From a virus: 64,000 bases of DNA. A program made the position numbers and the translations under genes. The stretch lies in the IMG/VR virus record IMGVR_UViG_3300046542_000168, positions 1-64,000 of that record. The stretch is one strand, 5' to 3'. Below are positions 25,507-44,802 of the stretch, piece after piece. Each line of letters opens with the position of its first letter. Position 1 is the stretch's first letter. The notes beneath the pieces were generated by a model. That model did no database searches. It saw only the letters and a list, made by a program, of their open reading frames with translations, and was not told the DNA's origin.

Positions 25507-28152
25507 TCAGTGGCAATCCTTCCAGCTCCGGCCCAGGACGTACCCGGCATCGAGCGGAACGTTGAGGTCGAAGTCTCTGTTGACCAGGGCTACAGCCTCG
25601 GAGATGAGTTCTCCCTGGCGGCAATAGGCCACGAACCACGCCTTTTCTGTGTGCTGTACATCGCTCCAGACACCCTCTTGAGCGGCCTTAAAGTCGCTGG
25701 CCACCTTCTCGCATCGGGCATCCTCGGCAGCCTGGAGCTTTTTACGCTCAGCCTTGTCTGGGTGCTCGATCTTCTGCCAGCCCAGGGCCTCTTTAGTGAA
25801 GACCTTGAACTTGACCGACTCACGGTTGACTTCGCCCTGAGCTTCATCATGCATTGCGATCATTTGTTGCCACCAGCTAGTAACTTCGTCCAGAGACTGT
25901 TTGAAGAAGTCCACAATCATTCCTTCAGCGGCTGCTAGTCGGTCGTGGTAAACCATAACTTTCTTCGCACATACAACACCGCCACCCTGGAACAGGCTGT
26001 TGAGGATTGCGTGAGCTGAACGAGTCGGAATAAGACGGCCATCAATACCAATGATGCGTTTCTTCTGGAACTGCTTTTCCCACTCTTTCTTCAGAGCATC
26101 TTTCAACTTAGCTAGTGGCTCAGCGGCTTCCCAGAAGGCGTCATAGATCATCTGACCAATCTCCAGGGAGCAACCGATGGTCTTAGCAATCTTCGCAGCC
26201 TGGGCACCATACGTGGCGCCATATTTAACGTTCTTCGCGGGGCTACGGCCAAAGTCACTGGCGATAATTGCACTAATGCGTTGAGCCATCATTGTGTGAA
26301 CGTCAAACGGCTTCTCCTGAATAAGCGAGTTGCAATATGCCTTCAGGTCATCGGCCTCGTGAATCCAGCAGTAGTGCCCTTCAATGCGTGCTTCCAGGGA
26401 ACTAAAGTCATAGCCTAGTTGCCATGCGACATTGCTGTCTGCCATGAACAGAGCGCGCATATTCTCACCGTACAGGCTGGTTGAGCGCGGAACGTTAACT
26501 ACAAGACGGTGCCTCATCCTTGAGGTAGCGGCATCACAAGTACCAGCAGGGGTTGGGATACGCCCGTCTTCACGGATGTTCGCCAGATACCCCTTAGAGG
26601 TCTGTTCGTCTGTATCGTCTTCGAAGTCTTCGAAGGTCTGGCCACCACCCAGGATGGAGTTGCGACGGTGACGATAGGTCAAGTATTCAGTGATGTCTGT
26701 AATGCAAGCCAGCTCTTCGGAACTTTCAGCAATCTCTTTCAGGTTCGGGCAAATCTCCTTCTCCTGACCAACTGTAAAACTAGGGTTGGTTTGAACCTTA
26801 AGTCCACCACCCCGTTGTTTACGCTTGAGGAAGAAACCTTCCAGGCGCATACGGTTGGTTCGTTCATTGCCGAGCGGCGAGAGTTCAAGGAACTCCATCC
26901 GGTCTTTACGGAACTCGACGTTAAGAGTTTGCTCGATATAACGATTGATTGCTGCATCAAGTTTCTCAGGCGACAACTTGTTCTTCTTCGCGTCAACCGT
27001 CAGGTCTTTCTCTTTGTACTCTAACGGCCTCCATCCGAGAGATACCAGCCACTCTTTAATGTGGGTCGTATCGTTGATAGTCGCCGTCATGGTAGTACGA
27101 AGAGGTACATCAGCAGGCAGGGGTAGCTGGTATGTTTTTCCTTCCCATACCAGTTCGTAGCCTGTTTCTGTTTCCGCGATTTCCCCGCCGATCTTCTCGA
27201 CAAACTTCCGCATATTGGCCGATGGCTCGCCCGTAGACTTCTTGAACTGAAGTTTCGGTGGAGTAAAGTCGGCCATGTAGCCTTTCGTTGCTGGCCGTGG
27301 CGGAATAATCGCCTCGATCTTCACTCGGCGCTCTTCCATCATGGCGTCAAGTTCGGTCAAGCACTCTTCAGCCAGGGCCTTGTCGAACGCAAACCCACGG
27401 TGCTCCTGTCGAGTGATTAGCTCGACAGTCTGCTTCTCCAGCTTAATCGCCGGGTGCCACTTATCACCCCAGTCCCACAGCGTCATCTCGGCATCGAGTT
27501 TCTTCGCTACAAGCTTGTTCGCTTTAACGTCGAGGATGTTGTAATAGACCATATCTGCACCGGACAACAGAAACTTGAAGTCCCGTGGTACGTGTGGCCT
27601 GAAATCCATCTTCTCATCGCTAGAGCCTACAGCCAGGTTTTCCAGGCTGTGGCCCCCGAACCGATCCGGGTTGAGCGTCTTAGAGCGCACCATCGTGTCG
27701 TCAAACACAACGGGCTTGCCACCCCACGTATCATCCCCCAGCGGCGTATCCATGCCGATTTCAACCTTATAATCAACGCCGAAGTACAGCTTGATTACTA
27801 ACAAGTCGAAGTTAATCTGGTTGTGAGCGATGATCCGACTTCCTTCTGGAATCCATTCCAGAAACTTAATGTAGTCTTTCAGGGGGCGATGGACATAATC
27901 TAGCGGCTCATAGCCTTCGAAGGTGTATGTATAAGCATCATTGATGATGCCGAAGTCTACAACATAAGGGCGACCATCGAATACATACTTGGGTCCATCG
28001 TGGAACGCGACTACCTTGTCATCGAATTCAACAACAATACAGTGGATCGCGAAGTCTTCTTTCAACTTATAGGGAACACTGGAGTAGTCGATAGAACTGC
28101 TATTCAGCAGCCCCGTCGATTCCAGATCCCAGGTAATATCCTTGGGTAGCAC
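25507..28152 (-). CDS. Family A DNA polymerase with 3'-5' exonuclease domain
   Basis: 881 aa, longer than T7 gp5 (704 aa). N-terminal proofreading exonuclease: DxE in ITWDLES, ExoII IIAHNQINFDLL, ExoIII YNILDVKANK. Polymerase motif A GYDFSSLEAR, motif B RSPAKNVKYGATYGA with the catalytic Lys and Tyr, motif C MHDEAQGEV. It replicates phage DNA, presumably with the primase-helicase, SSB and exonuclease encoded beside it. The last part extends past motif C in a charged tail. GTAAG-type repeats lie in the leader. Confidence 0.96.
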   Translation of the reverse strand: MLPKDITWDLESTGLLNSSSIDYSSVPYKLKEDFAIHCIVVEFDDKVVAFHDGPKYVFDGRPYVVDFGIINDAYTYTFEGYEPLDYVHRPLKDYIKFLEWIPEGSRIIAHNQINFDLLVIKLYFGVDYKVEIGMDTPLGDDTWGGKPVVFDDTMVRSKTLNPDRFGGHSLENLAVGSSDEKMDFRPHVPRDFKFLLSGADMVYYNILDVKANKLVAKKLDAEMTLWDWGDKWHPAIKLEKQTVELITRQEHRGFAFDKALAEECLTELDAMMEERRVKIEAIIPPRPATKGYMADFTPPKLQFKKSTGEPSANMRKFVEKIGGEIAETETGYELVWEGKTYQLPLPADVPLRTTMTATINDTTHIKEWLVSLGWRPLEYKEKDLTVDAKKNKLSPEKLDAAINRYIEQTLNVEFRKDRMEFLELSPLGNERTNRMRLEGFFLKRKQRGGGLKVQTNPSFTVGQEKEICPNLKEIAESSEELACITDITEYLTYRHRRNSILGGGQTFEDFEDDTDEQTSKGYLANIREDGRIPTPAGTCDAATSRMRHRLVVNVPRSTSLYGENMRALFMADSNVAWQLGYDFSSLEARIEGHYCWIHEADDLKAYCNSLIQEKPFDVHTMMAQRISAIIASDFGRSPAKNVKYGATYGAQAAKIAKTIGCSLEIGQMIYDAFWEAAEPLAKLKDALKKEWEKQFQKKRIIGIDGRLIPTRSAHAILNSLFQGGGVVCAKKVMVYHDRLAAAEGMIVDFFKQSLDEVTSWWQQMIAMHDEAQGEVNRESVKFKVFTKEALGWQKIEHPDKAERKKLQAAEDARCEKVASDFKAAQEGVWSDVQHTEKAWFVAYCRQGELISEAVALVNRDFDLNVPLDAGYVLGRSWKDCH

Positions 28153-28161
28153 CTTACTTCC

Positions 28162-28527
28162 TTACTGTTTACTTACGATATTGCCAGAGTAGGTTTTAAC
28201 ACTACCCTCGATAAAACGACTTGAAACGTTGCCAGAATATGTACTGACACTCTCAACAATCCCTCCGCAACGGACATCGCCCGAAGAGGTATTGATTGAC
28301 TGACAATTGCCACTTACCCTAACGGAGCCTGAATGCGTCTCCAGTCGAGTCACGTCACCTTCAACGGTTACGATAACTCTGCGGTCAGGGATATTGCTTC
28401 CTTGCAACACCCCATCAACAAACACATCGTCGTGAATTATATTGATCTTTTGCCCGGTGTACTTTACGCCGTTAATGTTGACAGTGCCTACACCCTTAAA
28501 CATCGCATCGAACAACTCACCGATCAC
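28162..28527 (-). CDS. Repeat protein with beta-helix-like pattern (121 aa)
   Basis: The second half is built from four repeats of about 16-17 residues with the pattern T-x-S-G-x-V-x-x-x-G (HSGSVRVSG, SSGDVRCGG, YSGNVSS, YSGNIVS), as expected for a small right-handed beta-helix. Proteins of this kind are widespread in large phages; function unknown. ATGA overlap with the primase-helicase gene. Confidence 0.8.
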   Translation of the reverse strand: MIGELFDAMFKGVGTVNINGVKYTGQKINIIHDDVFVDGVLQGSNIPDRRVIVTVEGDVTRLETHSGSVRVSGNCQSINTSSGDVRCGGIVESVSTYSGNVSSRFIEGSVKTYSGNIVSKQ

Positions 28528-30335
28528 TGTTCATCCTCCAGTAGTGCCGCCAGATGCGGATTCGCGTCCATGTAATTATCGAAGTCGTGCAGGCGAGCGG
28601 TTGGAATGTCATAGAACATGCCGCCTGCTGGGCCCGTCTCCGAAAAGTCGCGGTTCTTCAAGATGTTTACAGAAGTCTTGTTCCGCAAGATCGGATTAGC
28701 ATTCTGCTTGTCACGCTCCAGGGAGAGTGTCAAACCAGAAGCTTTAACAAGGAACGAACTACCTTGTGCGTCATCTTCCGTCAGCGGAGAGTCTTTGCCG
28801 CCATTAGTTGTCTTACGAACGTGCGAAACGATAATCAGTGTAATGCCGTACTCCTTGATGATCTTCTTGAACCAAGTTGCAACTTCCTCTTGATCGCTAA
28901 CACTCATACCAGACAACAAGTCGGAGTAAGGGTCAACGATCAGAAGCGTGATGCCCTGGCCGATAATCATCTCAAGGATCTTCTCCTTGATTTGTTCCCA
29001 GGAAGCACCCCGGTCATCGCAAACATAGAACGTTGGTGAGCCATCAGGGCGGGCATACAACTTGTCGATTTGAGCATCATGCGCAGTCAAGTAAGCTTGC
29101 CGCTCTTCCTTGTCCATTCTGTGCAAGGCTTTGCCGAGGTAGTACGACAACAAGTTCAATGAGAACTTACCGTGAGCCTGCTCTAGCGACAGAACACCAA
29201 CACGCTCTGTTGGTTCGCAAAGTGCCATATGCTCAGTAAGAGCACTCATCGCAGTAGTCTTACCGATACTGGTTTTAGCCAGTAGTAGGAAGATTTCCTG
29301 CTTTACAATACCACCACCACTCTTAGCCGATACTCCAGCGAAACACTCTGGAAGAGTAATGATCGGTAGGTCTGCCTGATCCATCGCGGCCTGTTTAAGT
29401 GCCGTTGATGCATGGATACCTGCTGGTGTATAAGGCTGGGCACCCCAGAAGTCGTTGATAAAGTCTTGTTCCGCACGCACAGCTCTTCCAGACGCATTGT
29501 CGTGGATATAGGCGTTCGGATCTTTCTTCCGCATCTTCATTACAAAGACTTTACTGCGGGGAAGTACTTTAACGACCTTCTCTAGCGCCTTCTGTCCGGC
29601 ATCGTCCTGATCCATGCAAATAACGATCTTCTTGAACTTATTGAAGAACTCGTACTGTGCCTGGACTTGCTTATGTAAAGAACTTTCCCCAATGGTGCTG
29701 GATACAACTGCAACTGGATCGAATGCCTTGTTCTTCTGGGCATCACTGAGCATCTGATATGCGGCTAGAGCGTCATGCTCGCCACCAGTAATAAGCACTG
29801 TGCCGTTGAACGTTTTAAACCACATCTGGCCAAAGAGGTCGCAACTCATGCCAGTCTCACCGAACGGATTCGAGAACTCTTTCGGATGTTTGCGGATCTT
29901 GTAACCGCTGAGCTTGTAGTTCTTAGTACACGGGTAGTAAATCTCGTCTACTGTACCGTCTGTCTCATTATATCGGTAACGCACCATGAACTTCTGTGAA
30001 GTCTCATCGCGAATTCCGCGATAACCCTTCGTCTTGCTTCCAGTCTCTGCCTTGAGTTGGTTGTGAATCTCTTCGTTAAACGGCTTGCCCACTACTGATA
30101 TCTCTTGCTCTCTTTCTTCATAACCGCCATTCGCTTCCATCCATTCAATGCTTGGATAACTCCATTCACACGAGAAACAGCGACAGCCCTTGTGTCTGCC
30201 TGAAGAGTCCAGCCCGTAAACAACTAGGTTATCCCCAGAGTTATCATGGCCTGTCTTCCGGCAAACGGGACACGCAATGTGCCCAGCTTGCGACAAATCT
30301 AATACTTGCCCATACTTTTTAATTTCGTGACTCAC
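28524..30335 (-). CDS. T7 gp4-like primase-helicase
   Basis: 603 aa. N-terminal zinc-binding motif CPVC (22-25) and CFSC (53-56), then a TOPRIM primase domain (GEHDALAAYQML) and a RecA-like helicase with Walker A TSIGKTTAM and Walker B LLIVDPYSDLL, plus an ASVL-type Gln-rich loop downstream. It unwinds DNA and makes primers at the fork. Confidence 0.95.
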   Translation of the reverse strand: MSHEIKKYGQVLDLSQAGHIACPVCRKTGHDNSGDNLVVYGLDSSGRHKGCRCFSCEWSYPSIEWMEANGGYEEREQEISVVGKPFNEEIHNQLKAETGSKTKGYRGIRDETSQKFMVRYRYNETDGTVDEIYYPCTKNYKLSGYKIRKHPKEFSNPFGETGMSCDLFGQMWFKTFNGTVLITGGEHDALAAYQMLSDAQKNKAFDPVAVVSSTIGESSLHKQVQAQYEFFNKFKKIVICMDQDDAGQKALEKVVKVLPRSKVFVMKMRKKDPNAYIHDNASGRAVRAEQDFINDFWGAQPYTPAGIHASTALKQAAMDQADLPIITLPECFAGVSAKSGGGIVKQEIFLLLAKTSIGKTTAMSALTEHMALCEPTERVGVLSLEQAHGKFSLNLLSYYLGKALHRMDKEERQAYLTAHDAQIDKLYARPDGSPTFYVCDDRGASWEQIKEKILEMIIGQGITLLIVDPYSDLLSGMSVSDQEEVATWFKKIIKEYGITLIIVSHVRKTTNGGKDSPLTEDDAQGSSFLVKASGLTLSLERDKQNANPILRNKTSVNILKNRDFSETGPAGGMFYDIPTARLHDFDNYMDANPHLAALLEDEQ

Positions 30336-30344
30336 GCGGCCCTC

Positions 30345-30584
30345 TTATGCCAACAGTGGGGCCGGTGGTAACTCGCCGCCAAGGAACTTCCAGAGTTCAT
30401 TGCTCACCTCTTTCGAGATGATAAAGCTAGCGTTTACAGTCCCGTCCCAGTTTTTAGTGATATGGAACTGGTTCCAGTCCAGCTGTCGGGCTGCTTTCGT
30501 CGCAAGGGCGTAGCTGATGTCTGCGATATAGGCACGGGTAGCGTGAATCTCCAGCTTCTTACCGAACGTTTTAAATACTTCCAT
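30345..30584 (-). CDS. Small unknown protein (79 aa)
   Basis: Nine bases upstream of the primase-helicase gene, in the same operon. Mixed composition with a hydrophobic Pro/Leu-rich C-terminus. Unknown. Confidence 0.65.
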   Translation of the reverse strand: MEVFKTFGKKLEIHATRAYIADISYALATKAARQLDWNQFHITKNWDGTVNASFIISKEVSNELWKFLGGELPPAPLLA

Positions 30585-30600
30585 GTACAGCTATTCCTTC

Positions 30601-30837
30601 CTACAGCTCTTTAAAGTAATCGGATGACTGCCAAGCCATCTCAGGGAATCGCTTGTTGGACGGCATATCAAACCAGTTGGGATTCCCGTCATCCTCAATA
30701 ATGAAGCCATCGGGACCGTGAATGTTCTCGAACGTAAACCGATACGTTTTACCGAGAGTTAGTTGTCCCGGTGTTGCCTTAATACAGAGCAGATACGCAA
30801 CCTTCCCATCATTGAAGTCCGGCCAATACGCTCCCAT
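30601..30837 (-). CDS. Small unknown protein (78 aa)
   Basis: Begins directly at the stop of the Nampt-like gene (1-base overlap). It contains a TLGKTYRFTFENIHGPDGFIIEDDG segment typical of a small beta-barrel seen in other phage proteins. Function unknown. Confidence 0.65.
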   Translation of the reverse strand: MGAYWPDFNDGKVAYLLCIKATPGQLTLGKTYRFTFENIHGPDGFIIEDDGNPNWFDMPSNKRFPEMAWQSSDYFKEL

Positions 30838-32522
30838 TACGCTCGGCCCTCCAGGCGAAGACGAATCTGCTCCAGGGTGGTAGTACGGACGAAGCGACCA
30901 TCCTTGAACACAAGCTTCAGCAAGTTATCTTCAGCAGCTTCTTCGGATGGAGTTACATCGTCATCCAAGAAGTAACCGGCTTCTGAATTGCGGCCTACAA
31001 ACAGCAAGCCTCGTGCAGATTTCTTCTTGCTGTCGGTCTTCGGATCTTTATAGATGCTGATACCTTTGCCATTAACTTCAGTGTAAGTAGCCTTTACCGC
31101 AAACCCGAAAGTATCTCTGGAATTCATCTGATAAGTATATGATCCGATGCCCATCGTTACGTTTCCAGAGGCAAAGCCCTTCGCCTCCAGGCGCTCCAGA
31201 ATCTCCAGGCAACGCTTGGTGGTAATCGAGTCGCCGTAGATAAGGCCAATATGCTCATCGAGCAGCTTATAGCCCTTCGAAGTTACGGTGCCGCCGAAGA
31301 TTTCCCAGAGGACTTCAATAGCGCCTTTAACTTCGTGCAACGGTACTTCTTCACCAAGTTCAAGTTCCCAGTCGGGACCACAGCACTCACATGCGCAAAC
31401 GTCTACAACTTCGAACCGGAAATACTTGCCATCCTGCTCGACAACATCGTATTCGTTCATCATATCCGTAACGTACATATCTTCTGGCGCGACAGTCATG
31501 CCGCAAACCACTTGTACTGGATCACCAGAGTCTGGACGAATCACTAACTTGCCGGGAGTAATACCATTGCTCTCACGAGCCATGATTACATCTTTCAAGT
31601 CCGGCAGGATTTCTGTCAGTACTGCCCAGAAGTCGAACGAGTCTGCAACATACGAGACGATACCTTTCGGGAACTTTCGGGTAATCAAGTCTTGCAGAAA
31701 CATCCGCTCAGCAATAAGGCGCAAATCTTCGCCGCATGGATTGACGTTAATGTCTTGCTCGATCTTCAAGATGTTGCTTGTTGCTACAGCGTGCTCAGTG
31801 GCCGGTACAGAGGCCGCAACGAAGTCCTTAGCCCCGTAGTACTCCATGGCGTACAACACGCTACCCAGGGTATCCGTACCCAGGAAGTGAGCGATATGAC
31901 CGAAGCCGCTACGTGCCGCGTCTTCTGGGCCGGACATACCACGGGCCGAGAAGTCATGAGCCTGGAACGCCACGCCTTCTACAGGGCTTCCTGTACGCTT
32001 AGCGAAGTCCAACAACATCGCCTTGTACTCACCAGCGATAGTCGCGTTGGTCATGCTCTTCCACGTCAGGTCGCTGAGCGTAGTTTCGAGGAAGTTCACG
32101 AGCCAGTAAGCGTGCGGCACAGTGTTGCGGATCGTCAGGACCGGGATACCCATCGGGACTTTGCGGCCCTCTTCGATGGTCTTAATCTCCAGCGGGAGAT
32201 AACCCAGGTCGTGAAGTTTCGACAAGCCGTCAGTACTTACAGAATCTGAGCCCAGGTAGAAGTCGCAGAGCAACTTGAATCGGGCAATTGCCAGGCCCTT
32301 ATCCATATCGAAGAACTTTTGCCAGTTCTCGACAATCTCCATAATGGCGCCCTGCATACCGATAACAACAAGTTTGCCGTCGTAGTAGCGGGTTGCCTTC
32401 TGGCGATAGATGCGATCAGAGCGGGGAGTTAGGTTGCTGTAGACAGTTTCAGTGCCATCAGCGTACATCGCAGCATGGCCAAGTTTATAGCCGTCGCTGT
32501 TGAAGGGTGCAAAGATATTCAA
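30837..32522 (-). CDS. nadV: Nicotinamide phosphoribosyltransferase-like enzyme (NadV/Nampt or Namat)
   Basis: 561 aa, somewhat longer than typical bacterial and human Nampt (about 460-490 aa). The N-terminus DGYKLGHAAMYADGTETVYSN, the FQAHDFSARGMSG segment and the VPATEHAVATSN segment match the Nampt active-site regions. Classical Nampt joins nicotinamide and PRPP to give NMN. In the phage NARP1 pathway a Nampt homologue (Namat) instead uses ADP-ribose-pyrophosphate and makes NAD directly. The adjacent Prs-like gene, with no NMN adenylyltransferase in the window, favours the NARP1 reading. Confidence 0.93.
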   Translation of the reverse strand: MNIFAPFNSDGYKLGHAAMYADGTETVYSNLTPRSDRIYRQKATRYYDGKLVVIGMQGAIMEIVENWQKFFDMDKGLAIARFKLLCDFYLGSDSVSTDGLSKLHDLGYLPLEIKTIEEGRKVPMGIPVLTIRNTVPHAYWLVNFLETTLSDLTWKSMTNATIAGEYKAMLLDFAKRTGSPVEGVAFQAHDFSARGMSGPEDAARSGFGHIAHFLGTDTLGSVLYAMEYYGAKDFVAASVPATEHAVATSNILKIEQDINVNPCGEDLRLIAERMFLQDLITRKFPKGIVSYVADSFDFWAVLTEILPDLKDVIMARESNGITPGKLVIRPDSGDPVQVVCGMTVAPEDMYVTDMMNEYDVVEQDGKYFRFEVVDVCACECCGPDWELELGEEVPLHEVKGAIEVLWEIFGGTVTSKGYKLLDEHIGLIYGDSITTKRCLEILERLEAKGFASGNVTMGIGSYTYQMNSRDTFGFAVKATYTEVNGKGISIYKDPKTDSKKKSARGLLFVGRNSEAGYFLDDDVTPSEEAAEDNLLKLVFKDGRFVRTTTLEQIRLRLEGRA

Positions 32523-32557
32523 TTGTGTCTTCCTGACTTACGAACTTACTGACTTAC
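32523..32557 (-). promoter_or_regulatory. GTAAG-repeat leader upstream of the Nampt-like gene
   Basis: The 35 bases before the start codon read on the minus strand as a series of GTAAG/TCAGTAAG-like units. Similar leaders precede genes at 41134, 28152, 24520, 19820 and 43538. They may be extended ribosome-binding regions or protein-binding RNA sites. Confidence 0.45.
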
Positions 32558-33409
32558 TTAAACAACATAGATCCACTCAACCTTTTCGTTGACGACACCG
32601 AGATGGTCAACATTGCCCTTAGCTGTGCCGTGGTATGAGTTGGTGGTATAAATTTTATCGTACATGCCGGGAGCGGTTAGTAGTTCAAGGCCCTTAGTGA
32701 AGAGGCCGTGTGTAACTACAAGCTTCAAGGCTGCACACTTCTGGCTACGCAGTACAGTCGCCAGTTCTGTAAATGTCTTACCGCCGTCGCAAATGTCATC
32801 GGCTACTAGGAGGTTAAGACCTTTTACATCAGCTAGGACTTGGACGCCTTCAATTCTTCCTGTTGCTACATCCCGTACTTTGTTCGCACAGATAACACCT
32901 TTAGCGCCAATAGTTGTTGCCAGATTGTGGGCCTTTTTATATGCCCCTGCGTCCGGTGCAACTATATAGTAGTCATTAAAGTTGTCAACGATATTATTGA
33001 ATATCTTTGATTGTGGCATGTTTTCGCAATTCTTAATAACAGCGGACGCCACGTCACTATGAGCATCAAGAAGAACTACAGTGTTGAATCCACAAGAATT
33101 AATCAAAGATCCCATAACCGCAACACTAAGAGCTTCGCCATTTACGCACGGGCGGTCCTGGCGAGCATATGGCATGTACGGCATCCACAAATCCATTTCA
33201 GCTCGTGGATAGTGACGGCGAAGTGCATCTACCGTGAGCAGTAGAGCAATAATGTCGTCGCTAGTTTGAAGTGAAGCGTCAATACGCAGCCAGTCTACTT
33301 TGTTAGATGGGCTTTCGCTACCTACATTGATATCTACTTTAACCTCCCCACCTGGGAACTTACTTACAGATACAGCAGTAGTGTTAAAGCCGAAACGGTA
33401 CTTAATCAT
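32558..33409 (-). CDS. prs: Ribose-phosphate pyrophosphokinase-like enzyme (Prs or Adps)
   Basis: 283 aa from the ATG at 33409. It has the ribose-phosphate-binding FPGGEVKV, the DAHSD motif and the PRPP-binding loop LLVADDICDGGKTF. Prs makes PRPP from ribose-5-phosphate and ATP. The NARP1 homologue Adps pyrophosphorylates ADP-ribose instead. Shorter than host Prs (about 315 aa), with the regulatory-flag region reduced. Together with the downstream Nampt-like gene it forms a two-gene NAD-synthesis unit. Confidence 0.92.
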   Translation of the reverse strand: MIKYRFGFNTTAVSVSKFPGGEVKVDINVGSESPSNKVDWLRIDASLQTSDDIIALLLTVDALRRHYPRAEMDLWMPYMPYARQDRPCVNGEALSVAVMGSLINSCGFNTVVLLDAHSDVASAVIKNCENMPQSKIFNNIVDNFNDYYIVAPDAGAYKKAHNLATTIGAKGVICANKVRDVATGRIEGVQVLADVKGLNLLVADDICDGGKTFTELATVLRSQKCAALKLVVTHGLFTKGLELLTAPGMYDKIYTTNSYHGTAKGNVDHLGVVNEKVEWIYVV

Positions 33410-33740
33410 CAAGAATATCCCAGTTTGAAGAATCGCTAAATGCGTGATCGTGGTCCGACCGTGAAGAGTTTTTGCGAGTCGTAACTACGTCTGCAATATC
33501 TTCAACTGCGGATAAAATCTCATCGAGTACGTCACTTCTCCGTTCATCGCGGGAAGTTGAGCGAGCAAGTCGCCCCTGACTGTACGGAATAGATTGCCGT
33601 GCCGGTGCTGGTGGTCGTACTGGAGGCATCGCCGGACGCTTCACAGTTACAGGCTCAGGCTTCTTCCTGAGTTTAAGTAGGGTGGATAGGGACCAGACAA
33701 CAAGTACCACACCGATGATTACTAACGAACATTCGATCAT
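33402..33740 (-). CDS. Single-pass membrane protein (112 aa)
   Basis: N-terminal transmembrane segment (LVIIGVVLVVWSLSTLL), then a Pro/Arg-rich cytoplasmic tail and an acidic helix. Overlaps the prs start by 8 bases. One of three consecutive membrane or exported proteins of unknown role. Confidence 0.65.
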   Translation of the reverse strand: MIECSLVIIGVVLVVWSLSTLLKLRKKPEPVTVKRPAMPPVRPPAPARQSIPYSQGRLARSTSRDERRSDVLDEILSAVEDIADVVTTRKNSSRSDHDHAFSDSSNWDILDD

Positions 33741-34171
33741 ACGACTTCCACTATTGTGCAGATTCCTTCTTTACCATCTTTGATGCGTTGCTCAAGTACT
33801 GACAACTTCTTCTCGGTTTTACTATCCAACATTTTGCGAATTTTTGAGCTGTACTTTGTGAAGAGCACACCTCCGACTACGACAAGTAGCCACACCCAGC
33901 CGACAAGACAAGGGACGATAGCGCTCTTCAGTATGGTGAAGCCGAAGATTGCTGCAATCGGTACGTGGAGCATGCAGAAAGCGAAGTAGATGGCGAATAC
34001 AAGTACAAGCAATCCCAGGGCGATGTATAACAGTGTCTGGATTACGCTACGCAGTGTAGTGCGGATGTAGGTGCAAGTTGTGAACTTACGGCCTCGTGCT
34101 CGATCACGGAACGAGCTGCCCTGAAGTTGCGAGTTGAATCGGTAATGCCAGGAACGTTTGGAGATTTGCAT
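33737..34171 (-). CDS. Two-pass membrane protein with MQISKRSWHYRFN start (144 aa)
   Basis: The first 13 residues and the following segment are a pattern I associate with small membrane proteins in many phages. Two hydrophobic segments lie at about residues 45-70 and 80-105, followed by a Lys/Glu-rich tail. AAGG precedes the ATG. It overlaps the C-terminal end of the macro-domain gene by 130 bases in another frame. Confidence 0.72.
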   Translation of the reverse strand: MQISKRSWHYRFNSQLQGSSFRDRARGRKFTTCTYIRTTLRSVIQTLLYIALGLLVLVFAIYFAFCMLHVPIAAIFGFTILKSAIVPCLVGWVWLLVVVGGVLFTKYSSKIRKMLDSKTEKKLSVLEQRIKDGKEGICTIVEVV

Positions 34172-34653
34172 GTTTCACCTTCTCGGTCGTATACATGGAC
34201 TTGAAAGCCACGGGTAATAAGTTGACGCTCAATCATCGGCAGTACTTCGTCTTGCCAGGAAGCCCCGCCCAGTCCGCAACCCAGTCGCGGGAGGCAAATA
34301 GCTAGGCCGAGTTCACCGCCCAGGAAGAAGTGGCGAGCGAATGCAGACATTGCTGTTTCTAGTTCAGCAGGGAGTGTGTACTTTCTCCCGTCCCGTCCAT
34401 ATGTGTATTGCCCATACAGGTTAACTATGTACCCATATAACTTGTCGATCCCGACGTAGCTATATGTACCCAGCTTGTCTGGATCACCCTTCTGTGTCTT
34501 GCAGTCTACTGCGTATGCTTCGGGGAATTCCTCTCGGATGGCTTTCGCCACCCCAGAGTTCATCGTGTTGAAACAGTTTGCTTGGTGCAGCAGGGCGAAG
34601 TATTGGCCAGTCTTAAATGCTTCAACTACACAGCCGGTGCGGTACTCAATCAT
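34042..34653 (-). CDS. Macro-domain (ADP-ribose-binding) protein
   Basis: 203 aa. Macro-domain signatures: ALLHQANCFNTMNSGVA (ADP-ribose-binding loop 1), IVNLYGQYTYG and AICLPRLGCGLGGASW. T4-like and KVP40-type phages carry comparable proteins, which bind or hydrolyse ADP-ribose derivatives. Lying 1.5 kb from the Prs/Nampt pair, it could bind ADP-ribose released by NAD-cleaving defences or trim ADP-ribosylation. The last 43 codons overlap the next gene and look unconserved. Confidence 0.88.
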   Translation of the reverse strand: MIEYRTGCVVEAFKTGQYFALLHQANCFNTMNSGVAKAIREEFPEAYAVDCKTQKGDPDKLGTYSYVGIDKLYGYIVNLYGQYTYGRDGRKYTLPAELETAMSAFARHFFLGGELGLAICLPRLGCGLGGASWQDEVLPMIERQLITRGFQVHVYDREGETCKSPNVPGITDSTRNFRAARSVIEHEAVSSQLAPTSALHCVA

Positions 34654-35734
34654 CCTGCTCAACCCCGATCAGTTTCCACACGTTACCGTCTTTCTCGAAG
34701 TTCCAGTACTGCTTGATGCGAATAGCACCAGTACCATCGTCCAACTTAGCCTCAAACAATACGGAACCACGCAACTTGCCTTGTTCTACTACAACGTCGA
34801 TTGTTCGGTGCTCAAACATCAAGACCTTCGACGGAGCGGACAAACACTCTTCTACCGGCAAGTACTTGGTGTTAGCTTCTACCCAGGTAGCGTCATCGCT
34901 GTGCTTCTGGAATTCGTAGAAGATTGCCATCGCTCTTGAATCGAGGTCATCAAACTCTGATGGACCTTTAGGCGACAGGTCGAACTTTTCCTTGATCTTC
35001 CCTTCTACTCGGTCACGTACTTCTTTTTTACGACCAAGAGTTACCAACTTGTAAATCCCATAACCGATTGCACCAACAACGCTCAAGAAGAAAGCCAGCT
35101 TGATGACGAACCACAGGGCACCCCACAGAGCGCCGAAGAACGAGAATCCCGATTCCTGAGGTTGCTGTTGCTGCACGATCACTACTGGCTGTTGCTGCTG
35201 TTGCGATTGTGGCTGGTAGTATTGCTGTGGTGCCGCCTGGGGAGCCTGCTGTACGGGTGCTGCTACCGGTTGGCCCTGCTGGTTGAAGTACTGCCCAGGG
35301 TATTGCGGGTGGGTAAACATGCCAGCATGACCGGGGCTGCTAATCAGTGCGGTAATTGCACTTGCGGCCAAGATCCCGCCACCAACGCCTGCGGCAGTTA
35401 CACCGATGTCCCGCATGGTGGAGCTTTGGCGCGGCTGGTTGTACGAGTTGCTACGGTAGTTGTTATCGCTGTAACCGCTGTTGTAGTTGCTCTTGTAGCC
35501 ACTGTTGTTACTGCTGCCAGAGCTGTAGCTTGAGCTTGAGCTACTAGACGAGTACGAAGGCGTCTTGTAAGTGGTAGCCGGTTTACTATACGAAGTAGTA
35601 GCTGGCCGACTGTAAGAGCGGGAAACACCGCTAGAACCACGCGAACCACCAAACGCCGCAAAAGTGACATCAGTAAAAACGACCATACCCATCGCAAGCA
35701 GCGGTACAAACAACTTCCTCATTTTCATATCCAT
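34646..35734 (-). CDS. Exported or membrane Tim44-like protein (362 aa)
   Basis: Signal peptide (MRKLFVPLLAMGMVVF...TFA), then about 160 residues of Ser/Tyr/Asn/Gln low complexity with runs of Q, a membrane helix (residues about 205-230) and a C-terminal 120-residue domain resembling the bacterial Tim44-like domain (KHSDDATWVEANTKYLPVEECL, then a strand-rich end). Bacterial proteins with this layout sit at the inner membrane; their role is unclear. In a phage it may remodel the envelope. The Gln run is encoded by CAG/CAA tandem repeats. Confidence 0.75.
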   Translation of the reverse strand: MDMKMRKLFVPLLAMGMVVFTDVTFAAFGGSRGSSGVSRSYSRPATTSYSKPATTYKTPSYSSSSSSSSYSSGSSNNSGYKSNYNSGYSDNNYRSNSYNQPRQSSTMRDIGVTAAGVGGGILAASAITALISSPGHAGMFTHPQYPGQYFNQQGQPVAAPVQQAPQAAPQQYYQPQSQQQQQPVVIVQQQQPQESGFSFFGALWGALWFVIKLAFFLSVVGAIGYGIYKLVTLGRKKEVRDRVEGKIKEKFDLSPKGPSEFDDLDSRAMAIFYEFQKHSDDATWVEANTKYLPVEECLSAPSKVLMFEHRTIDVVVEQGKLRGSVLFEAKLDDGTGAIRIKQYWNFEKDGNVWKLIGVEQDD

Positions 35735-36279
35735 TAGTGATGCGTGATAATTTCTTTAGTATCGAGAAGAGCTTTAATCTCATCCCAGTTCCAGGGAGAC
35801 ATATCCGCTTCAGGGCGGTTGTCGATCCCCACGTTCAAGCTACGGCCCCGGACATTTCCGTAAGTGGCATGTACATGCCCGAACAAATGGAAGGCGCCTC
35901 GATGACACTGGTTCCACTCGTGAATCGGATAATGGAACATGCAAACCCGCTGAGTTCCGATCTTGATTTCCTTGTAATCCTGGCGAGAGTTGAAGTACTG
36001 GGCAAACTTAGCCGCTCTCAGTGCTTCGTCGTGATTGCCATAGATCAGATGGATATCGCCTTTCAGTCGTTTCAGTAGTTGCTCAGTCTGTTCAATGCTG
36101 CCGAACGATACGTCTCCAAGGTGATAGATCCGGTCCCCTGGGCGAACACACTGATTCCAGTTGTAAATCATCAGTTCGTTGTGTTCTTCCAGGGAAACCT
36201 GGGGCCTTGTATCGGGACAGAACTGCTGTACTCGGTTGTGGTGCCAATGTGTGTCAGATGTGAACCAGATGTTCGTCAT
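35734..36279 (-). CDS. Metallophosphoesterase (calcineurin-like)
   Basis: 181 aa. Motifs SDTHWHH, GDVSFGS, GNHDE and FGHVHA give the full metal set. Related phage and bacterial enzymes act on nucleotides or cyclic nucleotides. It overlaps the Tim44-like gene start by one base. Confidence 0.88.
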   Translation of the reverse strand: MTNIWFTSDTHWHHNRVQQFCPDTRPQVSLEEHNELMIYNWNQCVRPGDRIYHLGDVSFGSIEQTEQLLKRLKGDIHLIYGNHDEALRAAKFAQYFNSRQDYKEIKIGTQRVCMFHYPIHEWNQCHRGAFHLFGHVHATYGNVRGRSLNVGIDNRPEADMSPWNWDEIKALLDTKEIITHH

Positions 36280-36542
36280 TCAAGCCACACATAGCCCTCA
36301 GCGAACAGCTCAGGCACAGCAGCCTCGAAGGCTAGTTCAACTTCACGCTCAAATTCACGGGCCTCATCAGCGGTTGTGAATTCATCCTCTAGTACAGTAG
36401 CGAGGATCATTGTGATTACCTCATCTTCCACCATGTCGATATCGCGAATGAAAGCTTTAACTGCCTCCTTGGGATCAGTGGCACGCTCGATGGCATTATT
36501 CAGGCTACGGGTGGTTTCAATTGCAAGTGCAACAACGGTCAT
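36276..36542 (-). CDS. Small acidic helical protein (88 aa)
   Basis: Coupled by ATGA to the phosphoesterase gene. Glu/Asp-rich helices; unknown. Confidence 0.65.
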   Translation of the reverse strand: MTVVALAIETTRSLNNAIERATDPKEAVKAFIRDIDMVEDEVITMILATVLEDEFTTADEAREFEREVELAFEAAVPELFAEGYVWLE

Positions 36543-37132
36543 GGTGTATCCCTATAAAATTTATGTTTGCCGACTGTGGCGACGTATTGCATCTTGTTCG
36601 TCCACTTCGGCCTAACTTTTAAAGTGTGGTAGTGGTCAGACTTCCCGATGGGATTCTCAACCTCTCCGTGAAGTACCTGATAACTCGTGATGTACGCTCG
36701 TTCCCAGTCCTCTGGCTTAGGCTTAACCTTCTGCCGTTTCGTGACATATGAGAACTGAGCCTTCTGGTTAACAACCCCTCTAACTGTCTTTGGCCAGCGA
36801 GCAGGGTTCTTAGTACGTTCAACAATGACGTAGCCGACAGCTACAGCCCCCATCATGGATTCGCCTCTGGCTTCATATACCAGGGCCTCAGCCATCTTTG
36901 AGCATTCACTACTCCGCTTACAACGTTGCTGCCGATCTGTATCAGTTAACTCTCTGGGGTACTGCTTTTTAGCAACAGCGGCGTAGTTCAAACTCACCGG
37001 GACAACTTCTTTTCGGCTGTACTGCTCAGCCCAGGAAGCGAATGTCTGATCCACTGCCCAGTCACAAGTGTGCAACACAATCGCAAGACACAAGGCCATT
37101 GCGTAGAACTGGAAATCAGCCCGGTGAAACAT
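36539..37132 (-). CDS. SleB-type cell-wall hydrolase
   Basis: 197 aa. N-terminal hydrophobic segment (FQFYAMALCLAIVLHTC), then the Hydrolase_2/SleB domain: ALVYEARGESMMGAVAVGYVIVERT with the catalytic Glu, and VVNQKAQFSYV. It would cut peptidoglycan glycan strands. With a signal-anchor N-terminus it may be the phage endolysin, or it may act in DNA entry or release. No holin is adjacent. AAGGAG lies upstream of the ATG. Confidence 0.85.
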   Translation of the reverse strand: MFHRADFQFYAMALCLAIVLHTCDWAVDQTFASWAEQYSRKEVVPVSLNYAAVAKKQYPRELTDTDRQQRCKRSSECSKMAEALVYEARGESMMGAVAVGYVIVERTKNPARWPKTVRGVVNQKAQFSYVTKRQKVKPKPEDWERAYITSYQVLHGEVENPIGKSDHYHTLKVRPKWTNKMQYVATVGKHKFYRDTP

Positions 37133-37142
37133 GCCCTACTCC

Positions 37143-37493
37143 TTACAACAGCGCGACCTTGTGTTGCCGAACGGTCACGTTTCTACGGAGATTACGACCA
37201 GCGAGCCATACTTTCTTAATAAAGCCCTGCCCTTTAAGGGGCTCTCCCATCGCCGCCATGGTGTTGTTGTAAAGTGCAACCATGTTATCCAAGGTCATGA
37301 CACGGCTTGCAGGATTGTCGATCACAAATAGCCCTTGCTGGACCTGATAACCCTGGAAGTTCGCAAACTTCTCCAGGCACATCAATTGCAACTGGCTGGT
37401 GTCGTAAATCTGCGTGTTATCCTCGGGGAGCGACTTCAGGTTCTCCATGATCGTAAAAATGTATTTATCTAGGTGATGCTCGATACGCTGCAT
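37143..37493 (-). CDS. Unknown protein (116 aa)
   Basis: Predicted alpha/beta with a basic C-terminus. One-base overlap with the dCMP deaminase stop. No motif recognised. Confidence 0.65.
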   Translation of the reverse strand: MQRIEHHLDKYIFTIMENLKSLPEDNTQIYDTSQLQLMCLEKFANFQGYQVQQGLFVIDNPASRVMTLDNMVALYNNTMAAMGEPLKGQGFIKKVWLAGRNLRRNVTVRQHKVALL

Positions 37494-37960
37494 TAATTGT
37501 CCATTTGCGTAATAAAGTTTAAATCGTCCATGCTCAACTCTGTGTACTCGTCCCCGTGTTGTAGCAGAACTCGCACACCGGCATTCAGGAAGTGGGCCAG
37601 CCCTTCTGTTGTTCGGTAGAACTCCTTAAAGACAAACTCCTTAATCCCCGCGTCCACAATATCTACCGCACACAGATAACAACTCGAATGCGTACAGAAC
37701 ATCGTGGCACCAACGGCGCTCTCAGAAGACCTTACAAGACCCATAAGAGCGTTCTTCTCGCTATGCCGTACCTCTGGCTTAGTTTTGTCGTTGCTGTCCT
37801 CCAGCGGCCCGTGTAGGTGCTCAGGAAGAGCGTTATACCCACACGAGATGATACGGTTGCCTTTAACAATCACCGTACCTACTTTCAGACGTTCTCCAAC
37901 ACTGCAACCAGCGAAAGCGTGAGCACATGACATATAAGCGTGCATGTGTTTGAGCTTCAT
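37493..37960 (-). CDS. dCMP deaminase-like enzyme
   Basis: 155 aa. Zinc-binding motifs RHSEKN (His66, Glu68) and SCYLC (Cys94, Cys97). It converts dCMP to dUMP, feeding ThyX, and fits the phage's dNTP-synthesis set. Confidence 0.9.
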   Translation of the reverse strand: MKLKHMHAYMSCAHAFAGCSVGERLKVGTVIVKGNRIISCGYNALPEHLHGPLEDSNDKTKPEVRHSEKNALMGLVRSSESAVGATMFCTHSSCYLCAVDIVDAGIKEFVFKEFYRTTEGLAHFLNAGVRVLLQHGDEYTELSMDDLNFITQMDN

Positions 37961-38187
37961 GGGTAAATGATGAACACCTTATGCACCTGCTGACTCTCTT
38001 CGTTTACATCAACCTCTAACAACGTGTCGTAAGTGGTCTGAAGATCCTCTGTAATAAAACAGAAGTCAGTGCCTCGGGCGTAGTCATAACTGTTGCCCTC
38101 ACTGTCACCCTGGACAACGATAGGGTTATCACCAAACCTTTCGATATCAAGCTTAAGCTGTCGAACCAGTTCACTCGCTAGTAGCAC
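37957..38187 (-). CDS. Small unknown protein (76 aa, GTG start)
   Basis: I prefer a GTG at 38187, preceded by CGGAG 7 bases upstream, to the ATG at 38235, which would overlap the previous gene by 65 bases. The protein has a GDSEGNSYDYARGTDF segment. Unknown. Confidence 0.55.
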   Translation of the reverse strand: MLLASELVRQLKLDIERFGDNPIVVQGDSEGNSYDYARGTDFCFITEDLQTTYDTLLEVDVNEESQQVHKVFIIYP

Positions 38188-38548
38188 AAGCCAACTCCGA
38201 TTCAATTTGCAGATACGCTCGCATCGCACCAACACGGAAATCCACCAAGTTCTTATTCATGCGGAACTCTGCCGGGTAGAACTGCCGTTCAAGTTGCTCT
38301 GGTGATACGGTAATGTAGTTGCCGAAGTCCGTGAGAATGCAATACCAAGTGAAGGGGACTTCTTCAATTGTTTCCTCAATTACCTCGACAACGATCCCGT
38401 TGCCAGTGCGGCGACCATCTCTGGTCGATAGCTGAGCATACAGTTCCACTTCGCCGTGCAAGTTCTTGTCGGCCCAGTGCGGTAAGCGGTATTCGTACTT
38501 CAGCCCAGGGTGTGGCCCACGAGTCGTACCAGTTTCAATTGCACTCAT
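38171..38548 (-). CDS. Unknown protein (125 aa)
   Basis: Starts with a Thr/Gly-rich segment, has a strand-rich middle and an Ala/Glu-rich end. Unknown function; in operon with the membrane protein upstream. Confidence 0.65.
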   Translation of the reverse strand: MSAIETGTTRGPHPGLKYEYRLPHWADKNLHGEVELYAQLSTRDGRRTGNGIVVEVIEETIEEVPFTWYCILTDFGNYITVSPEQLERQFYPAEFRMNKNLVDFRVGAMRAYLQIESELACATSE

Positions 38549-38817
38549 TACACATCCTTCGGCAGTCCGGCGTTAACCATGCCGAGTACTGCGGTTTTAA
38601 TCAGACTGAAGAAGTTTTTCACAATCCGGCATGGCAGCAGGATAGGACCAATGAACGCTTCGCCCAGGACTTCATAGAAGTCAGATTCAGTTACACGGCG
38701 ACCTTGAGCTTGACGCTCGAAGCGGAGTGCGAACAAGGCGTAGATCACATACACGGCGTAGATAACGCCGTAAGCAATTGCAATGGCCAACCACTTGGCC
38801 AGGATAAAATCAATCAT
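38548..38817 (-). CDS. Small membrane protein (89 aa)
   Basis: Strong hydrophobic segment from residue 5 to 30 (WLAIAIAYGVIYAVYVIYALFAL), then a basic loop and a second moderately hydrophobic helix. Unknown role. Confidence 0.68.
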   Translation of the reverse strand: MIDFILAKWLAIAIAYGVIYAVYVIYALFALRFERQAQGRRVTESDFYEVLGEAFIGPILLPCRIVKNFFSLIKTAVLGMVNAGLPKDV

Positions 38818-39005
38818 TTAATTCTCTCGAAGTATTCGTCAAACAGGATCACTTCCCCAATGGACTCGATATCTACAAAGAAGAGGTCTTCGTCCTCATC
38901 TAGGTCAACGATCAGACCTTCTAGTCCTAGTAGTTGGTGTTTGCCGTTTTTGTTTCCCCAGCTAAATTCTTTAACTATTCGAACTTTGTCGTTGATCTGA
39001 AACAT
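38814..39005 (-). CDS. Small KOW-like barrel protein (63 aa)
   Basis: MFQINDKVRIVKEFSW with a GLEGLIVDLDEDEDLFFVDIE segment resembles the small KOW/SH3-like barrel pattern seen also at 24742. Possibly RNA-binding. Confidence 0.6.
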   Translation of the reverse strand: MFQINDKVRIVKEFSWGNKNGKHQLLGLEGLIVDLDEDEDLFFVDIESIGEVILFDEYFERIK

Positions 39006-39153
39006 CTCGTCCCTCTAGTTTCCGCCAAGCGGCATCAGTTTCTTTCAGAAGTGTGTCCAGCTCTTTCCACTTCTTCTCCTTGTAAAGCTCCAGGGCTTTA
39101 CTACCAGGGGCAAGGTAATGCCCTGGCCTGTATTCAACGGCATCGCGGTACAT
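38971..39153 (-). CDS. Small charged protein (60 aa)
   Basis: Overlaps the KOW-like gene by 35 bases; AAGG precedes the ATG by 6 bases. Helical and Lys/Glu-rich. Probably real but unconfirmed. Confidence 0.5.
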   Translation of the reverse strand: MYRDAVEYRPGHYLAPGSKALELYKEKKWKELDTLLKETDAAWRKLEGRDVSDQRQSSNS

Positions 39154-39198
39154 ATTGAGCCTTCGGAGATTGGCGCCCGCATAACAGGCGCCATATAA

Positions 39199-39867
39199 TT
39201 ACTCGTCGTCTTGTGCTTCGAAGTACTGCTTCATCTCGGCCATCTCTTGCTCTTCTTTCTCTGCCCGGTACGCAGCGTACTTAGGCAAGCGATCACGCAA
39301 ATCATCTGCGTGGAAGTACAAGTCCCGGCCATAGTCGAGAATCTGCACGAACTCTTCATCTGTGAGGAAGCCAGCGTATGTACGCTCTACCCACTCACGG
39401 TTGATTCGCTCCGTATAGGCGACGCTCAATCGAACATCCGACTCTTTGCCGTAGCCTGGAGAGTAGGAGCAGGCATGAATCATCATGGTGCTGCTGTCGT
39501 AAACGACCCACTCATCAGCGTGCAAAGCAATCGCGGAACATGCACTAGCACAGGTCAAGCCAATTTCAGCAATGATCTTCGCACGGCATTCATCCATTCG
39601 ACGGCAGAGGTAGTCACAAGTCTCCATACTTCCGCCTGGGGAAGAGAGTTGGAAATAAACCTCGTCGTCTTCAGTGGCGTGAGCAAGAATCTCTACTTCC
39701 TCACCGAACTCATCAATCTCGCCAATCGGTACAGTGATCGGAATTACAAACTCCGTGAACACTTTCTGACGGGCAATGATGTTCTTCGGTCGCTGGCCAG
39801 AGATAGGCATCAATGCCATACCATCTGGGTAAACACCGTCATTCACCTTCTTGTTCTTATCAGTCAT
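39199..39867 (-). CDS. ClpP-like serine protease (222 aa)
   Basis: A ClpP/crotonase-fold protease: QLSSPGGSMETCDYL, the nucleophile region GLTCASACSAIA, and MMIHACS containing the active-site His. The ATG at 39867 is 7 bases after GGGGG and overlaps the phoH stop. It lies in the early region, unlike the S49 capsid protease at 53493, so it is probably not the head protease; it may remodel host proteins. The C-terminal 30 residues are Glu-rich. Confidence 0.85.
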   Translation of the reverse strand: MTDKNKKVNDGVYPDGMALMPISGQRPKNIIARQKVFTEFVIPITVPIGEIDEFGEEVEILAHATEDDEVYFQLSSPGGSMETCDYLCRRMDECRAKIIAEIGLTCASACSAIALHADEWVVYDSSTMMIHACSYSPGYGKESDVRLSVAYTERINREWVERTYAGFLTDEEFVQILDYGRDLYFHADDLRDRLPKYAAYRAEKEEQEMAEMKQYFEAQDDE

Positions 39868-40655
39868 CACCATGCCCCCTGACTTTCGAAGATGCTGGCC
39901 AAGTGGCCAGAGATTCCCGAACGGCAGTTGTGCTCAGGTGAAAACTTGATAACTACAGCGTCCTCGTGCGGGTGAGCTGCCAGAGCCTCTTCCAACTTCT
40001 TCAAACCGTTTTCAGCAGGCTTGAGGGCCGACTGAGTGATGTCCCCTGCACAGATGAGTTGGCAACCCTCTTCCATGCGTGTAACCAGGGCCTTGATTTG
40101 AGCCGGGTAAGCGTTCTGAAGCTCGTCTGCAAGGATGATCGTGCGAGGGCCGAACGACAGCCCCTGAATCTTCTCGATAGGCACGATCTGGATGCCGGAT
40201 GCTTCTTGAAAGAGCCCTTCCTGTACTTCATACCGGAAGTTGTTCTGCAAGATGCCGATGCCCAGGTACTTCTTAAACTTGGTCAACATGCTCATACAGA
40301 ACGGCAAGAGCTTCTGAGTGTCGTTGCCCGTTACAGCGCCGTAGTCATTCCCCAGGGACTGGTGCGGACGGCAGATTACGATGTTGTCAATCTTACCTTC
40401 CAGCCACAACTTACTGGCCCACCAAGCCATCAGTTCTGTTTTACCAGTACCAGCAGAGCCCGACAGAACAATCATCTGCTTCTCAACGAATGCAGCGAGA
40501 GCCAACTTCTGGGGGGCACTTTTAGCGGAGAGCGCTACAACACGGGCCGCTCGTTCTTCCTGAAAGCTCTCCTTCTTCGGAGGGCGTCCACCTTGCTCTT
40601 GCTTATTAACTTCACGGGCTTGTTTTACAGCCTGTTGCGTTCTCTTACTTCCCAA
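39867..40655 (-). CDS. phoH: PhoH-like ATPase
   Basis: 262 aa with a TTG start preceded by GGAG at 7 bases. Walker A GSAGTGKT (residues 66-73), CRPHQSLGNDYG and ADELQNAY Walker B region, GDITQS motif. PhoH proteins are widespread in phages and act on RNA, sometimes with toxin-like nucleases. The first 40 residues are Gln/Lys/Arg-rich. Confidence 0.93.
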   Translation of the reverse strand: MGSKRTQQAVKQAREVNKQEQGGRPPKKESFQEERAARVVALSAKSAPQKLALAAFVEKQMIVLSGSAGTGKTELMAWWASKLWLEGKIDNIVICRPHQSLGNDYGAVTGNDTQKLLPFCMSMLTKFKKYLGIGILQNNFRYEVQEGLFQEASGIQIVPIEKIQGLSFGPRTIILADELQNAYPAQIKALVTRMEEGCQLICAGDITQSALKPAENGLKKLEEALAAHPHEDAVVIKFSPEHNCRSGISGHLASIFESQGAW

Positions 40656-40744
40656 TCTACAGCTCCATCTGTTTCTTGAATAACGAGCATCATTTCTCGC
40701 CTGTATCTTCGCCGGACATCTTCACTAATGAACGGCGATGAATC

Positions 40745-41134
40745 TCACTTCTTAAGCGGAACTCCTTTCACCTTAGATACACGCTTGTGCATACGGATCA
40801 ATGCAGTAGATGCAGTGCCCATATCCAGTGGATACTTAGGGTTCTCGAAAATGCTCTTGAAGTTGTTTGCCATGCGACTGATAGCCATGACGTTACCAGG
40901 GACGTAGCCCTTGGTATTGTCGATGCGGTCGATGGTGATGTCTGTGGGCCTCGGTGTGCTCAGGCTGGGCTTAGTCATAAGCACTCCTGTGTAAGGGCAC
41001 ACCGTGCAACGCATCATGTTTCGGAAGCTAACTAGGCTGATTGCCCAGTTAATGTTTCGCTCGCTAGCGGAGCGGGACTTGCCTATGTAGTATTCAGCGA
41101 CAAAGCGCTCAAACTCGGCGGAAATGAATTTCAT
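40745..41134 (-). CDS. HNH-like small protein (129 aa)
   Basis: Contains CTVCPYTG and then ITIDRIDNTKGYVPGNVMAIS ... N..K, an HNH-nuclease-like core in which the first His is replaced (DRID). Similar proteins accompany phage early regions and mobile introns. The leader carries GTAAG repeats. Confidence 0.68.
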   Translation of the reverse strand: MKFISAEFERFVAEYYIGKSRSASERNINWAISLVSFRNMMRCTVCPYTGVLMTKPSLSTPRPTDITIDRIDNTKGYVPGNVMAISRMANNFKSIFENPKYPLDMGTASTALIRMHKRVSKVKGVPLKK

Positions 41135-41168
41135 GGTCTTACTGACTTCCTGACTTACTTACTTACAG
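41135..41168 (-). promoter_or_regulatory. GTAAG-repeat leader
   Basis: The 34 bases between two genes read on the minus strand as GTAAGTAAGTAAGTCAGG followed by TCAGTAAGACC. It is the clearest case of the GTAAG-type leader repeated upstream of several phage genes. Confidence 0.5.
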
Positions 41169-41447
41169 TTAACGAGTGAATCGGCCTGTCTCAGAGTCAC
41201 GCTGACGCACACCAACTAACCCGAATGGGGTGTCTTGCCATACTTCAGCTACAAGCTTGTGGACGTACCGAGTCTTACCACCCAGGCATACGCGGTGATA
41301 CCGAAGCTCAGGTTTGTCCGGTTGCGGAGTGATGCTGGAGGCAGTGAGGAACCGTCCGGTCCTCGTGCTCCACACCCGGCCATCCTCAGTCACATAGTGG
41401 TGAGGGAAGCCCTTGCATTTCCGTACCTCTACATCCGGCAAGATCAT
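41169..41447 (-). CDS. NUMOD4-like fragment of a homing-type protein (92 aa)
   Basis: The segment FPHHYVTEDGRVWSTRTG ... RYHRVCLGGKTRYVHKLVAEVW matches the NUMOD4-like region at the start of HNH homing endonucleases, but no HNH nuclease domain follows. It is either a trimmed homing nuclease or a co-opted DNA-binding module. Confidence 0.7.
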   Translation of the reverse strand: MILPDVEVRKCKGFPHHYVTEDGRVWSTRTGRFLTASSITPQPDKPELRYHRVCLGGKTRYVHKLVAEVWQDTPFGLVGVRQRDSETGRFTR

Positions 41448-41749
41448 CGCTGTTGGCCCCGTCGTGTGTGGGTTCCAGTGCAGGTTGGGGTCTTCCGGCT
41501 CTTCGAAATCTCCGAGCTGTTGACCGTATAGCGACCCTTGCCGAATAGCTCGTCACACGCCTCCTGAGCCTTCGCCCTGGCACGAGTGTGGTAGTAGTAG
41601 TACTGACCCATGGCAGACCGTGTAAAGAAGGTTGCCGGGGCTTCGAATTCGTAGTCTGCGAACTGCTCAAACTCTACGACGCTGTACTGTACACCGGCAG
41701 AAACCTGCTCGGCAGGGGTGAAATCGTTTTCTTGCGCACTTACGTTCAT
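41444..41749 (-). CDS. Unknown protein (101 aa), first gene of the leftward block
   Basis: Directly downstream of the leftward promoter at 41786-41813; AAGGAAG upstream. The first half is acidic, the C-terminus basic and Thr/Arg-rich. Probably the earliest leftward gene made. Function unknown. Confidence 0.65.
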   Translation of the reverse strand: MNVSAQENDFTPAEQVSAGVQYSVVEFEQFADYEFEAPATFFTRSAMGQYYYYHTRARAKAQEACDELFGKGRYTVNSSEISKSRKTPTCTGTHTRRGQQR

Positions 41750-44484: not shown

Positions 44485-44560
44485 AGAGGATTGGCGAAGT
44501 GGGAACGCTACGGGCTTTGATCCCGTCATTGACTAGGTTCGATCCCTAGATCCTCTTCCA
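44485..44560 (+). tRNA. tRNA-Gln (TTG)
   Basis: Acceptor AGAGGAT/ATCCTCT, T-arm CTAGG-TTCGATC-CCTAG, anticodon loop CTTTGAT with TTG, CCA encoded. First tRNA of the array. Confidence 0.93.
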
Positions 44561-44798: not shown

Positions 44799-44802
44799 CT
44801 TC

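Follow-up and report, generated by a model that had tools for sequence, protein, structure and literature searches.

Phage modules designated NARP1 rebuild NAD+ from ADP-ribose and nicotinamide by means of two enzymes, the Prs-like ADP-ribose pyrophosphate synthetase (Adps) and the Nampt-like nicotinamide ADP-ribose transferase (Namat). Structures are available for the system of the Bacillus phage SPbetaL1 (PDB 9w5w/9w5x; PMC12774641), and Adps and Namat of DyoEdafos were found to remake NAD+ in vitro (PMC13232231). In the Pseudomonas phage Adele (Pakpunavirus), NARP1 was annotated with a macro-domain gene nearby, the product of which was proposed to release ADP-ribose (PMC12846349). NARP2 systems combine a Nampt with a phage NMN adenylyltransferase, and a Nampt of Haemophilus ducreyi, HdNadV (PDB 9ke8), has served for the production of NMN from nicotinamide (PMC6095924). 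Among phage records, 1938 contain a Nampt-like match and 1477 a Prs-like one.

The window analyzed here comprises 64,000 nucleotides (positions 1-64000 of a virus record 107,407 bp long) and contains a gene pair that is assigned, from sequence comparisons and with a probability of roughly 0.88, to NARP1. The pair adds to the NARP1 set already known from related phages, macro-domain neighbor included, and contributes one more probably complete phage genome carrying this module. As the window finding itself is of a known kind, the main interest lies in a variant of the Namat selectivity clamp and in a sister operon located outside the window.

The Locus and Its Genome

The two genes lie on the minus strand, with adps (32558-33409; 283 aa, PF13793/PF00156, PHROG 619) upstream and namat (30837-32522; 561 aa, PF04095, PHROG 448) 35 bp downstream, which bears out a preliminary description that had placed a Prs homologue directly upstream of a Nampt homologue in one operon. 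They belong to a tight run of genes that opens with a phosphoesterase (35734-36279), a 362-aa ORF, a macro-domain protein (34042-34662) and a 144-aa membrane protein (33737-34171; PHROG 19964), the last two likewise on the minus strand. A 112-aa ORF with no family match (33402-33740) follows in the same direction and overlaps the start of adps; downstream of namat come two small ORFs and a primase/helicase-like ORF (28524-30335), the latter assigned by reading the sequence only. A promoter and terminator scan of positions 28000-41500 returned about as many sites as shuffled sequences.

An exact 127-bp direct repeat is common to both ends of the record (positions 1-127 of the window and the final 127 bases of L080), from which the 107,407-bp record is probably complete, being either a circularly assembled or a terminally redundant genome. 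Its size resembles that of its relatives, the closest of which is a 105-kb contig (L012) with a Namat 75% identical. The earlier attribution to a Pseudomonas phage is based on relatives. The window also carries 18 tRNA genes covering 17 amino acids, clustered at 44485-48534 on the plus strand. A search for PF02026 (RyR), the family of a RyDEP-like gene, gave no match in the record, nor did it in any control genome, and thus does not speak for absence.

Profiles for PF01467, NUDIX and AAA_28 found no match at E<=1 across the whole 107,407-bp record, and each of these families was matched in 14/14 control genomes. The preliminary description, which had seen no NMN adenylyltransferase and proposed a search for NadM/NadR in the rest of the genome, can thus be extended to the whole, probably complete record as far as sequence searches reach. 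NARP2 was set aside as a candidate, there being no PF01467 in the record.

Adps

The Prs-like protein matches PHROG 619 (phage ribose-phosphate pyrophosphokinase) at E=1.3e-85. Its open reading frame is listed from a TTG at 33412; ATGATTAAGTAC at 33409 overlaps the upstream stop, which makes 283 aa the likelier length. Described earlier as unusually short, the protein is so in relation to cellular Prs but not to the Adps of named phages, which measure about 272-295 aa. In the alignment, the catalytic Lys/Arg, ATP and HxD motifs of the Prs fold are intact (NKVRD, YARQDR and DAHSD). The ribose-5-phosphate loop, DDxx(D/S)TxGT in Prs, reads DDICDGGKTF (32771-32800, minus strand), with DGGKT replacing (D/S)TxGT. 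The Thr of this motif is present in 4/4 solved Prs and in none of the aligned Adps; the Thr-less loop as a mark of Adps was derived in this analysis and not taken from the literature. In the Adps tree, which has many long branches, the window protein sits among verified Adps, and the branch dividing these from Prs has full support. Both window proteins also match PHROG 12872 (547 positions), Adps along its N-terminal part and Namat along its C-terminal part; judging from this family, some phages seem to encode Adps and Namat as one fused protein.

Namat

The namat gene starts with TTG preceded by AGGA, and its product matches NAPRTase PF04095 (E=1.4e-36) and PHROG 448 (E=1.6e-183). These matches and that of Adps to PHROG 619 indicate homology far beyond chance. 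The best PDB match is SPbetaL1 Namat (9w5x, 392 bits), and the mouse, human and Xanthomonas (Xcc) Nampts score 195-197 bits; in the mirror control, the Nampt of phage nt-1 scored higher against Xcc Nampt (403 bits) than against Namat (250 bits). An AlphaFold model built from 26 sequences (pLDDT 92.5) resembles NAD-bound Namat most closely (9w5w, Z 46.4), followed by HdNadV (45.4) and human Nampt (at most 41.5). The catalytic residues Asp13, Tyr15, Phe189, Arg192, Asp215, Arg306 and Asp308 (SPbetaL1 numbering) are all identical, as are 16 of the 20 NAD contacts listed in PMC12774641. The four differences are A362S, F392Y, Y396M and T398S. A362S recurs in the active DyoEdafos enzyme, and F392Y is shared with a Bas63-related Felixounavirus; the window protein differs from both by Y396M and T398S. 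Bas63 itself belongs to Felixounavirus, and the pair from that group, itself without assay, served as its stand-in in the trees.

The preliminary description also regarded the Nampt as unusually long. The length is accounted for by a loop insertion of about 50 aa (31329-31493, minus strand), common but variable in the clade and missing from L018, a close relative (503 aa). The idea of a different chemistry behind the odd lengths was consequently abandoned, as Adps has a normal length and the Namat insertion ranges from absent to long within one clade.

In the Namat tree, the window protein falls with verified Namat, and a fully supported branch separates them from four Nampts. When the NMN-making HdNadV was added, it fell inside the Namat clade, adjoining SPbetaL1 Namat, so phylogeny alone is no proof of a Namat substrate and the tree was dropped as a stand-alone argument. 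This placement of a Nampt in the same clade is in line with ordinary nicotinamide salvage, in which the Prs homologue would make PRPP, the Nampt homologue NMN and a host adenylyltransferase NAD+, as in NARP2 but without an NMNAT of the phage. NMN adenylyltransferase is supplied by the host, both folds are common to Prs and Nampt, and one clamp aromatic is missing in the window protein. Salvage is nevertheless improbable, in view of the Adps-type loop found in place of (D/S)TxGT, the bit scores two-fold higher for Namat than for human and Xcc Nampt, the lack of an NMNAT match in the record and a clamp Arg and Tyr kept at positions where HdNadV has other residues.

The Selectivity Clamp

In the clamp loop, TPRSDR (32412-32429, minus strand), the stacking residue R40 of SPbetaL1 is kept, aligning with R37 of the window Namat. 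The clamp helix, a motif described in PMC12774641, reads GSYTYQMNSRD (31113-31145, minus strand) vs. GSFTYQYNTRD in SPbetaL1, with Y462, M466 and S468 equivalent to F392, Y396 and T398, respectively. Within the GS...TRD motif, position 3 is thus aromatic (Tyr), position 7 is Met and TRD is replaced by SRD. Having Met466 as the second clamp aromatic, rather than Tyr, Phe or His, counts against NARP1. Mutating a single clamp residue of SPbetaL1 Namat costs only 1.3-1.7 fold (PMC12774641), and position 396 (motif position 7) is His in the Namat of DyoEdafos, an enzyme with activity in vitro (PMC13232231); by analogy with these cases, Met at 396 is likely to be tolerable. Cys at this position is the rule among the aligned Pseudomonas-phage relatives. 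In HdNadV, positions 40, 392 and 396 are Glu, Gln and Arg, so that all three clamp residues are missing vs. one in the window protein. A lineage of Pseudomonas phages that tolerates one lost clamp aromatic offers a cheap test for the published selectivity-clamp model.

Four relatives (L023, L041, L043 and L072; Namat open frames of 591-615 aa) form a divergent subclade with the clamp helix GSYSLNM(I/L)SRD or GSFSLGMLSRD, in which the Met and Ser of the window Namat recur at the equivalent positions.

Proposed Function and the Macro-Domain Neighbor

In agreement with the initial proposal, NARP1 is favored over NARP2 by the Adps-type loop, a clamp of the Namat type in all but one residue, the closest matches being Namat proteins and the lack of an NMN adenylyltransferase in a record that looks complete. 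In the two-step route envisaged, defense NADases, such as those with TIR or SIR2 domains, would cut NAD+ and release ADP-ribose, which Adps would convert with ATP to ADP-ribose pyrophosphate (ADPR-PP); Namat would then exchange the pyrophosphate for nicotinamide, yielding NAD+ with no need for an NMN adenylyltransferase. Adps lies upstream of Namat in 53/54 loci having both genes. Namat can also make NMN from PRPP in vitro (PMC12774641), a point against NARP1; for the window enzymes, we infer a preference for ADPR-PP over PRPP from their sequences, and the pair is presumed to be active during infection.

A metabolic role in general NAD supply during infection, and not in counter-defense, could apply whatever the exact donor. 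Phage NAD genes are widespread, as the 1938 records with Nampt-like matches illustrate, and NAD+ reportedly drops in cells infected with the related phage PaP1 despite these genes (PMC12846349). Such a role is very improbable considering that SPbetaL1 NARP1 protects E. coli cells against the Kongming NADase (PMC12774641), that DyoEdafos NARP1 is coupled to degradation of the Thoeris signal (PMC13232231) and that NADases leave the donor behind as waste.

Counter-defense by NARP1 may further involve the macro-domain protein, an ADP-ribose hydrolase/phosphatase-like protein (PF01661, 25.6 bits; weak DarG similarity) which might supply the pathway with ADP-ribose released from 1''-modified or attached forms. 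The gene is a likely operon partner of adps and namat. It lies upstream of adps in the window and in L012, between the pair in L027 and downstream of namat in PAK_P2, phiPsa315, L003 and L041; in three records (C600M2, L035 and L072) it is well away from the pair. This recurrence in several lineages, to which no formal null is attached, suggests a working link, perhaps ADP-ribose supply.

A Sister Operon With Asp215 Changed

Comparison with 66 relatives from IMG/VR revealed a fully supported Namat sister clade with Ser (17 rows) or Ala (2 rows) in place of Asp215, which holds the amide of nicotinamide. In human nicotinate phosphoribosyltransferase, Ser214 occupies the position of Nampt Asp219 and was linked to the choice of nicotinate (PMC4442680). 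Genes for a nicotinamidase-like (isochorismatase-family) protein and NadE occur together in the 6-kb flanks of 17/17 Ser rows, and neither occurs in those of 36 Asp rows; since the change from Asp to Ser is one event on the tree, this split does not represent 17 independent observations. Record-wide NadE searches agree (17/18 sister-type vs. 0/5), and the closest solved match of the isochorismatase-family protein is a pyrazinamidase/nicotinamidase.

The conserved order is PncA-Adps-Namat(D215S)-(macro)-NadE. Members, with Ser or Ala at position 215, are L042, L046, L049-L057, L059-L063, L065-L067, L070, L071, L074, L075, L077 and L081-L084, with L044, L058 and L073 partial and L069 without NadE. 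They derive from phage contigs, which reach 434 kb, and from MAG contigs of Lachnospiraceae, Clostridium and Methanomassiliicoccaceae; as far as they reach, the MAG contigs carry the Adps-Namat variant with PncA-like and/or NadE genes, as well as NrtR-like genes. In the aligned phage members, the Adps protein has the Adps-type loop, and the clamp region of the sister Namat differs, with Met at 40 and an insertion in the clamp helix.

In the putative sister route, nicotinamidase would convert nicotinamide to nicotinate, Adps would provide ADPR-PP, Namat D215S would join the two into deamido-NAD and NadE would amidate this product to NAD+. An adenylyltransferase is found near only a few sister operons (L051/L052/L075 and L056), which favors direct deamido-NAD synthesis over the ordinary Preiss-Handler route, though unproven. 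It is a tentative proposal, held at somewhat less than even odds, that the window operon belongs, as the branch using nicotinamide, to a broader family of ADP-ribose recycling systems, the sister branch of which rebuilds NAD+ via nicotinic acid. An open-literature search, which did not reach the original NARP1 paper (Osterman 2024), found no paper on phage nicotinamidase or NadE with ADP-ribose recycling, and a nicotinic-acid version of NARP1 is apparently undescribed so far. If true, synthesis of NAD+ from ADP-ribose and nicotinic acid would be a third phage way of undoing NAD+ depletion, and cellular operons now annotatable as Prs-NAPRT-NadE would need re-reading.

Comparison With Known Systems

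The window pair shares with SPbetaL1 NARP1 the gene order, fold, catalytic residues, clamp Arg and first clamp aromatic, and the SPbetaL1 record likewise has no PF01467. It differs in having Met for Tyr396, Ser for Thr398, the loop insertion in Namat and DGGKT instead of SFGGT in the Adps loop. The nt-1 (Vibrio) and Miro (Klebsiella) phage Nampts, of the NARP2 type, have the Nampt fold in common with the window protein but carry the motif GGGLLQ, with no Prs-like gene within the stretch read and with PF01467 (adenylyltransferase-like) matches elsewhere in their records. HdNadV has the same fold, with 41% identity in the structural alignment, but is devoid of the clamp residues. The NARP1 modules of Pakpunavirus, Otagovirus and Plaisancevirus (Adele; PAK_P2, phiPsa315, phiPMW) agree with the window in the two genes, the length class and a non-aromatic residue at 396, which is Cys there and Met in the window; Namat identity to these named phages is about 51-61%. 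The macro-domain neighbor is also present in Adele, PAK_P2 and phiPsa315, although it follows namat in the latter two and precedes adps in the window.
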